A DNA stretch of 30,518 bases from IMG/VR virus record IMGVR_UViG_3300020573_000030, positions 1 through 30,518 of that record, one strand, 5' to 3'. Shown piece by piece: positions 26,859 to 30,518 of the stretch. The DNA comes from a virus. Position 1 is the first letter of the stretch, and each line of letters opens with the position of its first letter. The notes below the pieces were generated by a model, which did no database searches, was not told the origin of the DNA, and worked only from the letters and a program-made list of their open reading frames with translations. The position numbers were made by a program, and so were the translations under genes.

Positions 26859-27001
26859 ATTACAAATTAACATACACAATCGGAAAAAGAACGGTACAAG
26901 AATGGTACTTCCATTCCAAGTCACTTGCTTATTGGATGAAATCGGAGCTCCTAATCAAGGGAGGATACGACATGGGGAAATTTAAAGTGGAGCCGGTATG
27001 A
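26855..27001 (+). CDS. Small basic hypothetical protein
   Basis: 48 aa, coupled on both sides by 4-nt overlaps. It starts MNYKLTYTIGKRTVQEWYF and ends MGKFKVEPV. It is beta-like at the start, then has one helix (KSLAYWMKSELLIKGG). No known motif. It is supported mainly by its neat fit between two genes. Confidence 0.55.
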   Translation: MNYKLTYTIGKRTVQEWYFHSKSLAYWMKSELLIKGGYDMGKFKVEPV

Positions 27002-27267
27002 AACCATCAACCAAATTACTCGCAATCGTGGGAATCCTTCCGGTCATTGGTGATTTCATCGAGGACATGAATGATGAGAAGATATTCACCAAGGCAATCA
27101 AGATGAGAGCCAACCATCTCCTGGAAGAGATACGGAAAAGTGATCAACGACTCATTGGTGATGCCGGTGAGGAGATATGGAATCAACAAATGGATATACA
27201 AATGGCATTTCGCCAATGGTTAAAAAACGCAGAAAATGAACAAGAAAGAGAAAATCAAAGCAATTGA
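26998..27267 (+). CDS. Hypothetical helical protein
   Basis: 89 aa. The N-terminus KLLAIVGILPVIGDFIED is hydrophobic but short and breaks at Pro and Gly; the rest is charged and helical (AIKMRANHLLEEIRKSDQ, QMAFRQWLKNAENEQER). The end is poly-charged and overlaps the next gene by 32 nt. Not recognised; possibly a peripheral membrane or complex-forming protein. Confidence 0.6.
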   Translation: MKPSTKLLAIVGILPVIGDFIEDMNDEKIFTKAIKMRANHLLEEIRKSDQRLIGDAGEEIWNQQMDIQMAFRQWLKNAENEQERENQSN

Positions 27268-27640
27268 AACAATCATAATTCGAGATGGCCTTGATACACC
27301 AAATCGATCACAAATATTGACAATGAAAAGGAGATACTTAATGTCAATGCTTCGGTCATTTGACATCCCATTTCATAAAATTGGGGAGATGTTCAATCGA
27401 GATCATGCAACCGCAATTCACAACATTCGGCAACATCACAATTCAATTGATGCAAAGGACAAATATTATCTCACCATAATCAAGGAATGCGTTGATGAGC
27501 TCGAATCACCTCCGGAGGCAAAATATCAACGGTCATTGCGAAATGATATCCTCCGATGCACATCATACAACCAACTCAAATCAATCAAAAGGAGAGTGTT
27601 GAGGGGAGAATATCAAGAATTAATAAATGAGGAGATATGA
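27236..27640 (+). CDS. DnaA domain IV-like protein
   Basis: 134 aa. Residues 38-67 contain MLRSFDIPFHKIGEMF followed by NRDHATAIHNIRQH (54-67). This matches the signature helix-turn-helix of the DnaA C-terminal domain (consensus near GRDHTTVLHA), which binds DnaA boxes. There is no AAA+ part, so it cannot be a full initiator by itself. The C-terminal half is basic and helical (RRVLRGEYQEL). About 840 bases further on is the ATCGTCAC repeat array, so an origin-binding or host-DnaA-competing role is plausible. The start overlaps the previous gene by 32 nt. Confidence 0.75.
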   Translation: MNKKEKIKAIETIIIRDGLDTPNRSQILTMKRRYLMSMLRSFDIPFHKIGEMFNRDHATAIHNIRQHHNSIDAKDKYYLTIIKECVDELESPPEAKYQRSLRNDILRCTSYNQLKSIKRRVLRGEYQELINEEI

Positions 27641-28485
27641 AAACAATAAACTCATTAAGTGGAGGAAAAACTTCGAGTTACATAGCAGTAAATTATCCAG
27701 CTAATTACAATATCTTTTCGCTTGTCCGTACAAATGACATTAATTGCTTATTTCCAGATTCAAGGATTCGTCAAATAGTGAGTGATAAAATAGGAAAAGA
27801 ATTCATTGGAACTTTGGAGGAGGATGATATCATATATACAATGCTTGATCTTGAACAATTTATTGGAAGTGAAATAGTATGGCTATCAGGTAAAACCTTT
27901 GATGAAGTTATTGCAAGTTATAAAATGGCTAATGGAAGTAATTACTTACCTAATCAAATGACACGTTATTGTACAGTTGATATGAAGGTAAAACCAATTG
28001 CTCAATGGTGTTATGAAAATACGAATCTTCCAATTGAAATGAGAATCGGATTCAGAGCTAATGAGATGAAACGAGCAAAGACAATGATTGATCGATCTAT
28101 TGATGGAGTTGAATATTTTAAGTTTAAAATTGGAGAAAAAAATGGTCGTAACAAATGGAAAGAACTTCCATACAGAATGACACGCTTTCCACTAATTGAA
28201 GATGGTATTTTTAAAGATACAGTTGAAGAATTTTGGAAAGATAAACCAATTAGATTTGCCTACAAAAATAATTGTGTTGGATGTTTTCATCGTTCTGAGA
28301 TATTCCTTAAGCATATGAGTCAAAGAGATGAGAACAAATTTCAATGGTTTATTGATATGGAGCAGAAAAACGGATGCACATTCAAAAGCGGAGTTACTTA
28401 CGAAAAGATAAAAAACCATAAATTACAATTAGATTTATTTGATGAAGATTTCAACGATTGCGATTCCGGATATTGCGGACTGTGA
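27637..28485 (+). CDS. PP-loop / PAPS-reductase-like ATPase
   Basis: 282 aa. The PP-loop motif SGGKTS (8-13) near the N-terminus marks an adenine nucleotide alpha-hydrolase fold that activates substrates with ATP (PAPS reductases, tRNA thiolation enzymes, DndC). Cysteines at 112, 125, 213, 216, 247, 275 and 280, including CVGC (213-216), could hold metal or a cluster, or act in sulfur chemistry. Codon use (TTA, ATA, GGT and AGT more frequent) is unlike its neighbours, pointing to recent transfer. The stop codon lies within the first repeat of the ATCGTCAC array. Substrate unknown; base or nucleotide modification, or sulfur metabolism, is inferred. Confidence 0.75.
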   Translation: MKTINSLSGGKTSSYIAVNYPANYNIFSLVRTNDINCLFPDSRIRQIVSDKIGKEFIGTLEEDDIIYTMLDLEQFIGSEIVWLSGKTFDEVIASYKMANGSNYLPNQMTRYCTVDMKVKPIAQWCYENTNLPIEMRIGFRANEMKRAKTMIDRSIDGVEYFKFKIGEKNGRNKWKELPYRMTRFPLIEDGIFKDTVEEFWKDKPIRFAYKNNCVGCFHRSEIFLKHMSQRDENKFQWFIDMEQKNGCTFKSGVTYEKIKNHKLQLDLFDEDFNDCDSGYCGL

Positions 28486-28640
28486 CGATGTGACAATGCT
28501 CTTATATACCTACTATATAGAAAGAGTCATTTTTTTCAAATGGGCATCGCGTTTTTTTATCGTCACATCGTCACGCTTTTGCTCAAAGTCAATACCACAT
28601 TAGGATATAGGCGTGACGATAACATTTCAACATCGTCACG
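28482..28640. repeat. ATCGTCAC repeat array, origin or operator candidate
   Basis: Five perfect copies of ATCGTCAC or its complement: 28482-28489, 28559-28566, 28567-28574, 28613-28620 and 28632-28639, plus one with a single mismatch (28490-28497). The first two and the 28559 pair form a 13-bp perfect inverted repeat (GTGACGATGTGAC with its complement) around an AT-rich 67-bp spacer. The 28613 and 28632 copies form another with 9-bp arms and a 9-bp loop. This fills most of the 203-base gap before the primase gene. Confidence 0.75.
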
Positions 28641-28657
28641 AATTGACATTTTTTTCA

Positions 28658-28665
28658 TATATTTG
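28658..28665 (+). promoter_or_regulatory. Possible -7 element for the primase gene
   Basis: TATATTTG, 23 bases before the ATG at 28689. No TTG at normal spacing (the nearest is 12 bp away), and the place where it should be is occupied by the 28632 repeat, so an activator or repressor may act here. Confidence 0.5.
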
Positions 28666-28688
28666 TCACAAATAAACACACAAACACA

Positions 28689-30518
28689 ATGAAAGTATCA
28701 GTTTTTAAGAATCTTTTTAGCTCAAAGGACACTCCATATCAGCTCACAATTCATGAAATTTACCAACGTATAAAAGTTGGAAGTCTTGAATTGATTAACA
28801 AAATTAACAAAATACGTTCACTCGATAAGAGTGATCCGGAGCATGACCGGTTGAAAGCATCACTCAATGCAATCATGTTCAATGGAATATTCTCGGAACG
28901 CAATGACAATTCACTCATTGAGCACTCCGGATTATGCGTTTTAGACTTCGACCAATATCCATCGAGAAAAAAAATGGAAGAGGAGAGAGCTCGATTGATT
29001 GATGATCCCCATGTCATGATGGTATTCACATCTCCGGGAGGAAATGGACTCAAGGCGGTGATTAGGATTCCTAAATCGGATAAACTCGAGCACAAAAGGA
29101 GATTCACCGCATTCGGGAAATACTTTCAATCCGATTACTTTGATGTAAAGAATTCAAATGTATCTCGTGTTTGTTTCGAATCATATGATCCGAAGATATA
29201 TTTCAATGAGTTTTGCCAGGAATGGGAAGGAATTGAAACCGATGAGGGATATCAGTACACCGAAAGGACTCCCATTTGCGTATTGAATGATGAGGATAAA
29301 ATAATATCACTCATTGAACGCTTTGACCATGGATGTCAATTCGAGGAAGGGAGCCGAAATCACTTTGTGTTCAAATTGGCGTGTGTTATGTGCGAATATG
29401 GCATCGACAAAGGCACAACCGAGCAATATATTTGGACCAAGTATTGTCAAGGGAGCGGATTCGAGCATGGAGAGATGTTGACATCCATCAATTCGGCCTA
29501 TAAAAAAGCAAATTTCTCCACAAAATACTTTGAAGATAAGGATACATTTCATAAGGTAAAACAAAAACTCAAGTCGGGAATCGCAAAGGATGATATAAAA
29601 AAGCAACTTGGTGTTGCTGATGACATCATTGATGATATTAAGGAGGAGATTGCATCGGGAGATGATGTGTTTTGGATGGTTGACTCAAAGAAAGGAATCC
29701 AAATCGAGCCGATTAAATACTCCGAATTCTTGGTCAAAAGTGGATTCAACAAATACTATCCGGAAAATGCGGAAAGACCGACATTTGTCCGAGTGAAAGA
29801 GAATAAGGTCCGATTGAGCTCAACGGAACAAATCAAAGACTATGTACTCAACTACCTACTTGACAAGAATGAGGTGGCGGTATGGAACTATTGCTCACGA
29901 TCACCGTATTTATTCAATGAGAATCACCTCAACATGATTGACTCGATTGATATCCATATGCTTCAAGATACAAAAGATACATCATATATCCCATTCAAGA
30001 ATGGAGTGGTGAAGGTATCATCCAAGGATGTCAAGGTCATGAGTTACATCGATGTGGATGGATACATATGGGAGAATCAAATCATCCCTCGTGATTTCAC
30101 ATTCATCAAGGATTCAACCAATGACTTTCAAGATTTCGTATCCAAGGTATCAGCGGATGATGAGGAGAGAATCCTTTCCCTTGAGTCAACACTTGGATAC
30201 CTCATCCATTCATTCAAGGATAAAACCGATCAGAAAGCAATCATCTTCAATGACCAGGAAATCGATGACAATCCAAATGGTGGAAGTGGAAAGTCATTGA
30301 TGTTGGCAGCACTCGGATATTTCCGGAGAGTAGTCAAGATTGATGGAAAAGCATTCAATCCGGGAAAGAGTGATTTCGTATACCAAAGAGTGAACTTGGA
30401 TTCTCAGATTCTTGCATTTGATGATGTCAAACGCAACTTTGATTTTGAGCAATTATTCTCAATCATCTCGGAAGGAATAACGGTCAACCGAAAAAATAAG
30501 GATGAGATATTCATCCCA
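28689..30518 (+). CDS. Prim-pol/primase-helicase, second copy, 3'-truncated by the window edge
   Basis: 610 codons, open at the window end. The N-terminal part absent from the left copy is a BT4734/VirE-like prim-pol: LCVLDFDQY (82-90) with the DxD metal site (Asp86, Asp88), FTSPGGNGLKAV (113-124), and NVSRVCFESYDP (157-168). These fit the archaeo-eukaryotic primase-like family in Bacteroidota elements. Then follows the same linker and helicase start as in the left copy, with Walker A GGSGKS. The ATG at 28689 follows an AC-rich leader (ACACACAAACACA). The overlap with the left copy is about 90% identical with mostly silent changes. Confidence 0.9.
   Translation, partial: MKVSVFKNLFSSKDTPYQLTIHEIYQRIKVGSLELINKINKIRSLDKSDPEHDRLKASLNAIMFNGIFSERNDNSLIEHSGLCVLDFDQYPSRKKMEEERARLIDDPHVMMVFTSPGGNGLKAVIRIPKSDKLEHKRRFTAFGKYFQSDYFDVKNSNVSRVCFESYDPKIYFNEFCQEWEGIETDEGYQYTERTPICVLNDEDKIISLIERFDHGCQFEEGSRNHFVFKLACVMCEYGIDKGTTEQYIWTKYCQGSGFEHGEMLTSINSAYKKANFSTKYFEDKDTFHKVKQKLKSGIAKDDIKKQLGVADDIIDDIKEEIASGDDVFWMVDSKKGIQIEPIKYSEFLVKSGFNKYYPENAERPTFVRVKENKVRLSSTEQIKDYVLNYLLDKNEVAVWNYCSRSPYLFNENHLNMIDSIDIHMLQDTKDTSYIPFKNGVVKVSSKDVKVMSYIDVDGYIWENQIIPRDFTFIKDSTNDFQDFVSKVSADDEERILSLESTLGYLIHSFKDKTDQKAIIFNDQEIDDNPNGGSGKSLMLAALGYFRRVVKIDGKAFNPGKSDFVYQRVNLDSQILAFDDVKRNFDFEQLFSIISEGITVNRKNKDEIFIP
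29162..30518. repeat. Near-terminal repeat, right copy
   Basis: Partner of 1-1357, same orientation, gapless, with about 130 mismatches by hand count. Amino-acid changes are few; for example TGG GGA GGT becomes TGG GAA GGA (Gly to Glu). Confidence 0.95.

Follow-up and report, generated by a model that had tools for sequence, protein, structure and literature searches.

The gene at 27236-27640 of the window, by which we mean the whole 30,518-nt stretch of viral DNA analysed here, encodes a 134-aa protein predicted to have the fold of DnaA domain IV and no AAA+ part. The gene lies 5' of a block of ATYGTCACR repeats and a primase-helicase gene, an order shared with relatives. Our preferred reading, held with moderate confidence, is that the phage replicates with a module of its own and that the protein serves this module as a DnaA-type DNA-binding accessory free of AAA+.

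The DnaA-like protein and its DNA-contact residues

The following features were assigned to the protein and its gene.

27236-27640, plus strand: stand-alone DnaA domain IV protein, 134 aa (exact ORF, profile, fold)
about residues 3-91 of the 134-aa protein: N-terminal helix and HTH
about residues 95-134 of the 134-aa protein: conserved C-terminal tail
27284-27433, plus strand: match to the Pfam profile Bac_DnaA_C, including R24, R32, and H57 (profile)

The Bac_DnaA_C profile (PF08299) matched residues 17-66 with an E-value of 5.5e-7 and 30.0 bits, just missing the curated cut-off of 31.5 bits, and this was the only such match across the whole virus record. Relatives exceeded the cut-off, for example, L129 with 33.4 bits and L123 with 31.8 bits; it was passed in 7 of 21 records, including a Pedobacter genome with full-length DnaA. 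Individual matches were obtained for 23 of the 24 family members (best E 8.2e-12), and a profile built from these 24 members, searched against the PDB up to an E-value of 10, retrieved four DnaA sequences and nothing else: 3pvp (E 3.3e-4), 1j1v (1.1e-3), 8btg (0.01), and 2z4r (0.11). The AAA+ domain III was sought with PF00308 (Bac_DnaA), which gave no match at E <= 1 in the whole record while the control genomes were positive in 14 of 14 cases. The Bac_DnaA and Bac_DnaA_C searches together ruled out a hidden AAA+ part or a second DnaA gene in the window.

Comparison of the predicted structure with DnaA domain IV, which the earlier note had proposed as a check, pointed the same way. The AF2 model of the protein (mean pLDDT 85.5) was best matched in Foldseek by 3pvp (probability 1.00, E 0.07) and 1j1v (probability 0.82); as the E-value for 3pvp is just 0.07, the case for the fold stands on the probability and the Z-scores. 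VIA Z-scores were 10.8 for 3pvp (89 residues, 2.8 Å), 10.5 for 1j1v (86 residues, 2.7 Å), and 9.8 for 8btg, and the two closest solved structures, 3pvp and 1j1v, are DnaA domain IV in complex with DnaA boxes. Spo0J (1vz0) was the top row outside DnaA, with a Z-score of 7.9 (72 residues, 3.7 Å) against 10.8 and 10.5, and we put its likeness down to a common HTH arrangement. The earlier note had described a DnaA domain IV standing alone, with no AAA+ ATPase; this is upheld by the profile, the fold, the contact residues, and the absence of Bac_DnaA matches from the record, and NRDHATAIHNIRQH occupies residues 54-67 exactly as it had stated.

Residues were mapped by alignment to 1j1v (numbering 374-467), in which R24, R32, D56, H57, A58, T59, and H62 correspond to R399, R407, D433, H434, T435, T436, and H439 of E. 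coli DnaA, respectively. According to PMC5742627, TTA is read in the minor groove by R399 and TnCACA by the helix 434-451, and PMC7561715 names R399, P423, D433, H434, T435, and H439 as the base-specific residues. At the 399, 423, 433, 434, 435, and 439 sites the window protein has R, H, D, H, A, and H, so that the full E. coli set is incomplete, with P423 replaced by H and T435 by A.

Conservation was computed over 162 distinct sequences of the phage family. At the position of H434, 160 of 161 have H; R or K fills the R407 position in 159 of 159 and the R399 position in 147 of 159. All three positions belong to the four least variable columns of the family. Conservation this strong suggests that the predicted DNA binding is maintained. 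Variation is seen at 433 (D, G, N, H, K), at 435 (A, S, T, C), and at 423. The three full-length Pedobacter DnaA proteins compared here all carry RDHST; the A at 435 is therefore a small step and by itself no proof of a new specificity.

This variation bears on the earlier note's suggestion that the protein may compete with host DnaA. We considered it as competition at the host oriC, or capture of DnaA boxes, that would shut down host initiation. In its favour, DHST-type helices occur in some family members, like the RDHST of Pedobacter DnaA, and the phage itself has no excess of DnaA boxes. The 433 and 435 sites, however, vary widely in the phage family while the three Pedobacter proteins agree, which is unexpected if all members bind a conserved host box, and the gene is tightly linked to the phage's own primase. 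The suggestion thus gains little from the comparison, and we consider it very unlikely.

Of 7 dN/dS comparisons of the DnaA-like gene, two were saturated; the other 5 gave values of 0.15-0.25, which indicates that the gene is under purifying selection. The C-terminal tail and the HTH occurred together in 80 proteins, and the tail was found without the HTH only in the truncated L059.

Repeat block and linkage to the primase-helicase

Downstream of the DnaA-like gene, the window carries the following features.

27637-28485, plus strand: PAPS-reductase-like ORF (phrog_424, E 6.6e-20), between the DnaA-like gene and the array
28482-28497, minus strand: repeats 1 and 2, GTGACGAT GTGACAAT, 8-bp spacing
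28559-28574, plus strand: repeats 3 and 4, ATCGTCAC ATCGTCAC, 8-bp spacing, inverted relative to repeats 1 and 2
28613-28620, minus strand: repeat 5, GTGACGAT
28632-28639, plus strand: repeat 6, ATCGTCAC
28658-28669, plus strand: TATATTTGTCAC, in which a GTCAC core overlaps an TATATTTG element just before the primase start (sequence)
28689-30518, plus strand: primase-helicase with a BT4734-like N-terminal domain, running off the window end

The array in the window comprises six copies in both orientations, with two pairs at 8-bp spacing. Allowing up to one mismatch, CATCGTCAC occurs 17 times in the window against 8.2 expected, a count reached in none of 100 shuffles, and six of the 17 fall in 28482-28639. 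Within the clade the repeats share a GTCAC core and the consensus ATYGTCACR, in a conserved block of about 200 nt. The 63 distinct blocks contain 3.60 ATYGTCAC per block versus 0.03 in shuffles, at least two copies being present in 54 of them, and a reversed control pattern gave one match altogether in 15 of the clade's phage records. The extended motif is missing from two of the 70 loci (L044 and L067), with GTCAC cores still present. In an alignment of ten block sequences, the repeat cores formed the longest runs of invariant columns. Clustering of repeats beside a replication gene, common to relatives, is what marks an iteron origin, and both were found here; the ATYGTCACR block therefore resembles such an origin and is a likely origin of the phage. 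For a large group of phages that have not been cultured, it thus provides a concrete place where replication may start.

Canonical DnaA boxes were rejected as the phage target, as they show no excess in the window or the blocks. The interval 28486-28688 has no TTATNCACA box, as the earlier note had reported; the whole window holds one, against a chance mean of 1.74, and TTWTNCACA is present in 6 of 63 blocks versus a shuffled mean of 3.96.

Other elements of the region were also considered. In the window, the arms at 28567-28576 and 28611-28620 are perfectly complementary, and in L003 both are altered in step; a conserved hairpin was nevertheless rejected because the pairing is broken in L011 and L020, and we regard the arms as putative protein sites. 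An Rfam search of 27000-29000 returned a single chance-level match far under the gathering score, and a terminator scan of 28380-28720 found none, so that we make no terminator claim for the CTCTT...AAGAG element.

The TATATTTG element at 28658-28669, which we take to resemble the Bacteroidota -7 promoter element, raises the question of whether the protein controls transcription in the replication region, for instance by repressing the primase promoter, rather than acting in replication. A small HTH protein would suit this role, the GTCAC core overlaps the element right before the primase start, and relatives have another small HTH gene in the same cluster. The fold of the DnaA-like protein, however, is specifically that of DnaA domain IV and no generic HTH; the promoter element is a resemblance to a consensus, and the pattern TTG-N17-23-TAnnTTTG occurs in 1 of 70 blocks. 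We therefore rate a purely transcriptional role as quite unlikely.

Relatives were gathered via the primase, keeping the best 80 of 405 primase relatives. The resulting linkage set held 82 contigs with the same primase-helicase, including the window and L001-L006, which had been fetched with the DnaA-like protein itself. In this set, the DnaA-like gene is present in 70 of 82 contigs, and the 12 without it are all cut 618 nt or less 5' of the primase. Wherever at least 1500 nt upstream was available, the gene was there (59 of 59, window and L001-L006 included). The distance from its stop to the first possible primase start is 119-274 nt, mostly 200-211, and about 640-1050 nt where a gene is inserted, namely the PAPS-reductase-like ORF in the window and another ORF in L003. 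This position, 5' of the primase and the repeat block in every clade contig with room, supports the earlier note's proposal that the protein may mark the phage origin.

Its placing of the gene near the repeat array holds in part. The repeats are real, and in L004-L006 they abut the gene, whose stop codon overlaps the first repeat; in the window, 841 nt separate the two because the PAPS-reductase-like ORF sits between them. This ORF is absent from L004-L006 and present in the near-identical L001 and L002.

Several side observations concern the same neighbourhood. A gene that looks, by sequence only, like a homing endonuclease lies between array and primase in L003 (2548-2874), and similar ones are found in L015, L059, L066, and L083; the presence of this other gene in several relatives suggests that the array-primase intergenic region has taken up insertions repeatedly. 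L115 has a tandem-repeat ORF that separates its DnaA-like gene from the primase; it lies about 500 nt 5' of the latter, has 13 CAACTTG copies in 260 nt, and is pentapeptide-repeat-like by eye. Upstream of the DnaA-like gene, L006 (9402-9590) and L003 (1399-1587) carry a 62-aa HTH gene that is missing in the window at about 26998. L112, which has no DnaA-like gene nearby, shows another array about 340 nt 5' of the primase, in which CCACATA, a sequence that recalls a DnaA box in its 3' half, occurs 5 times within 260 nt.

The family is widespread among phages. A wider set, obtained with two further primase queries and an iterated profile, contained 244 putative members of up to 260 aa, counted by their profile match at E <= 1e-3. 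Among 164 loci that extend 1500 nt or more upstream of the primase, 147 encode a family protein no farther than 3.5 kb 5' of it, and some phages encode two. Among loci with an about 61% identical primase, the gene was present in 1 of 4 with room. In most of L134-L150 it abuts or overlaps the primase start and the repeat array was not seen, and in phages of about 60 kb it lies 2-3 kb from the primase, again with no ATYGTCAC array seen; the latter arrangement indicates that adjacency to the origin is not universal.

Genes for terminase, portal, amidase, and an ERF-type protein are present in the record, which is a virus contig. Its ends (1-1357 and 29162-30518) overlap by 1.36 kb at 90.3% identity, most likely reflecting a circular genome of about 29.2 kb with ends from two strain variants. 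Because the contig ends overlap, the primase-helicase gene continues within positions 1-1930, where its 3' part also recurs as a diverged copy. A full-length homologue of the primase-helicase, in L006, gave a weak PriCT-1 match. Among bacteria, a related primase was found closest in a Pedobacter prophage, and named phages with distant primase matches are mainly those of Flavobacterium, Polaribacter, Cellulophaga, Maribacter, and Bacteroides, which together point to a host probably within the Bacteroidota.

Recognition of the repeats and role of the protein

If the DnaA-like protein were the main initiator, it would read the ATYGTCACR repeats itself through a re-specified DnaA specificity and load the primase-helicase. 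This would agree with the abutting gene and array in L004-L006, with the kept R399 and H434 sites, and with the likeness of the TTATCGTCA repeat to the DnaA box, TTATCCACA, which agree in 7 of their 9 letters. DnaA boxes with up to two mismatches are also in excess (1.59 per block versus 1.02, sd 0.15, in shuffles), perhaps just because of the repeats, in blocks that are also related to one another.

Natural exchanges between phages speak against this role. L077 and L068 have blocks 93% and primases 99% identical, with DnaA-like proteins only 34% identical, and L067 and L062 show 87%, 98%, and 33%, respectively; the L077 and L067 cases are metagenome contigs, in which chimeras are possible in principle. 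Conversely, L060 and L064 share DnaA-like proteins of 100% identity beside blocks of 43%. Many different recognition helices occur beside the same repeats, and L123 has a helix (NRDHATVIN) almost that of the window, yet beside AGTTGTCAC repeats. Moreover, the prophage of Pedobacter sp. L105, with a primase 57% identical, has three ATYGTCAC just 3' of its primase gene (TTATCGTCAC repeats), and its host genome contains no stand-alone DnaA domain IV, just three full-length DnaA frames; the protein is thus not obligatory for this primase type.

We consider it unlikely, given these observations, that the protein is the main initiator; rather than the DnaA-like protein alone, the main reader of the repeats is more likely to be the primase-helicase, or the two act together. 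The earlier note's conditional, that binding to the array would need an altered specificity, was reasonable, but the exchanges, the Pedobacter prophage, and L123 argue against array binding itself. Primase identities by domain do not decide who reads the repeats: L087, with the ATC-type repeat of the window, has a primase 55% identical overall and 31% in the C-terminal part, and L123, with a GTT-type repeat, one of 66% and 38%. The AF2 model of the primase-helicase (mean pLDDT 36.1) is too low in confidence for judging a C-terminal origin-binding winged helix.

As a separate observation, the three DnaA frames of Pedobacter sp. L105 (L098, L099, and L100) encode 485, 476, and 476 aa, while 38 of 40 other genomes from its family give one Bac_DnaA_C match; they may reflect a true multiplication or a mixed assembly.

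The accessory reading is supported by the domain IV fold, the kept grip residues, the purifying selection, and the constant place 5' of the block and primase in this clade. In such a role, the DnaA-like protein would bind and bend DNA at or near the origin/promoter block, its conserved C-terminal tail could help place or regulate the primase-helicase, and host DnaA might thereby not be needed.

A bolder version, which we put forward tentatively and regard as doubtful, is that a DnaA DNA-binding domain freed from its ATPase and given a new tail acts as an exchangeable origin adaptor in many phages, a large group that probably infects Bacteroidota. The adaptor would recruit the BT4734-type primase-helicase to an iteron, TTATCGTCACR, that derives from the DnaA box. 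If so, its evolutionary signature would be that phages swap the adaptor while the origin stays constant. Studies of DnaA usually treat it as a single machine whose domain IV positions the AAA+ filament. A phage family with domain IV alone, tied to another replicase, would suggest that the domain is usable as a separate part, and the L077/L068 and L067/L062 pairs offer natural swaps for probing its contribution.

Comparison with known systems

Like DnaA domain IV (PF08299; 1j1v, 3pvp), the phage protein has the predicted fold, an HTH with an RDH(A/S/T)T-type recognition helix, and equivalents of R399, R407, and H434. It differs in lacking AAA+ and domain I, in having A at the T435 site and H at the P423 site, in its extra conserved C-terminal tail, and in a Pfam score slightly below the cut-off.

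Small phage proteins of this kind are already annotated: phrog_27829 ('DnaA-like replication initiation protein'), gp23 of Pelagibacter phage HTVC204P (178 aa, Bac_DnaA_C 65 bits), and two small DnaA-like proteins in MW202828.1, one named 'dnaA' (100 aa). All share Bac_DnaA_C within a small protein, whereas the second part and the neighbourhood of the window protein differ. The phrog_27829 profile matches 2 of the 24 relatives, with no match to the window protein at E <= 0.01, and tblastn with the window protein found no match in 50,697 phage records. Within the literature covered, which lay mostly outside subscription journals, we found no description of a phage stand-alone DnaA domain IV beside an iteron array. 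DnaA-like phage proteins consisting of the DNA-binding domain are therefore known, and what is new here is the combination of a conserved tail, an iteron block, and a BT4734-type primase-helicase.

The phage P4 alpha type combines an iteron origin with an origin-binding primase-helicase. The window resembles it in having repeats in both orientations beside a primase-helicase gene, with origin binding by the phage primase being putative, and departs from it in encoding an additional DnaA-type protein beside the array.
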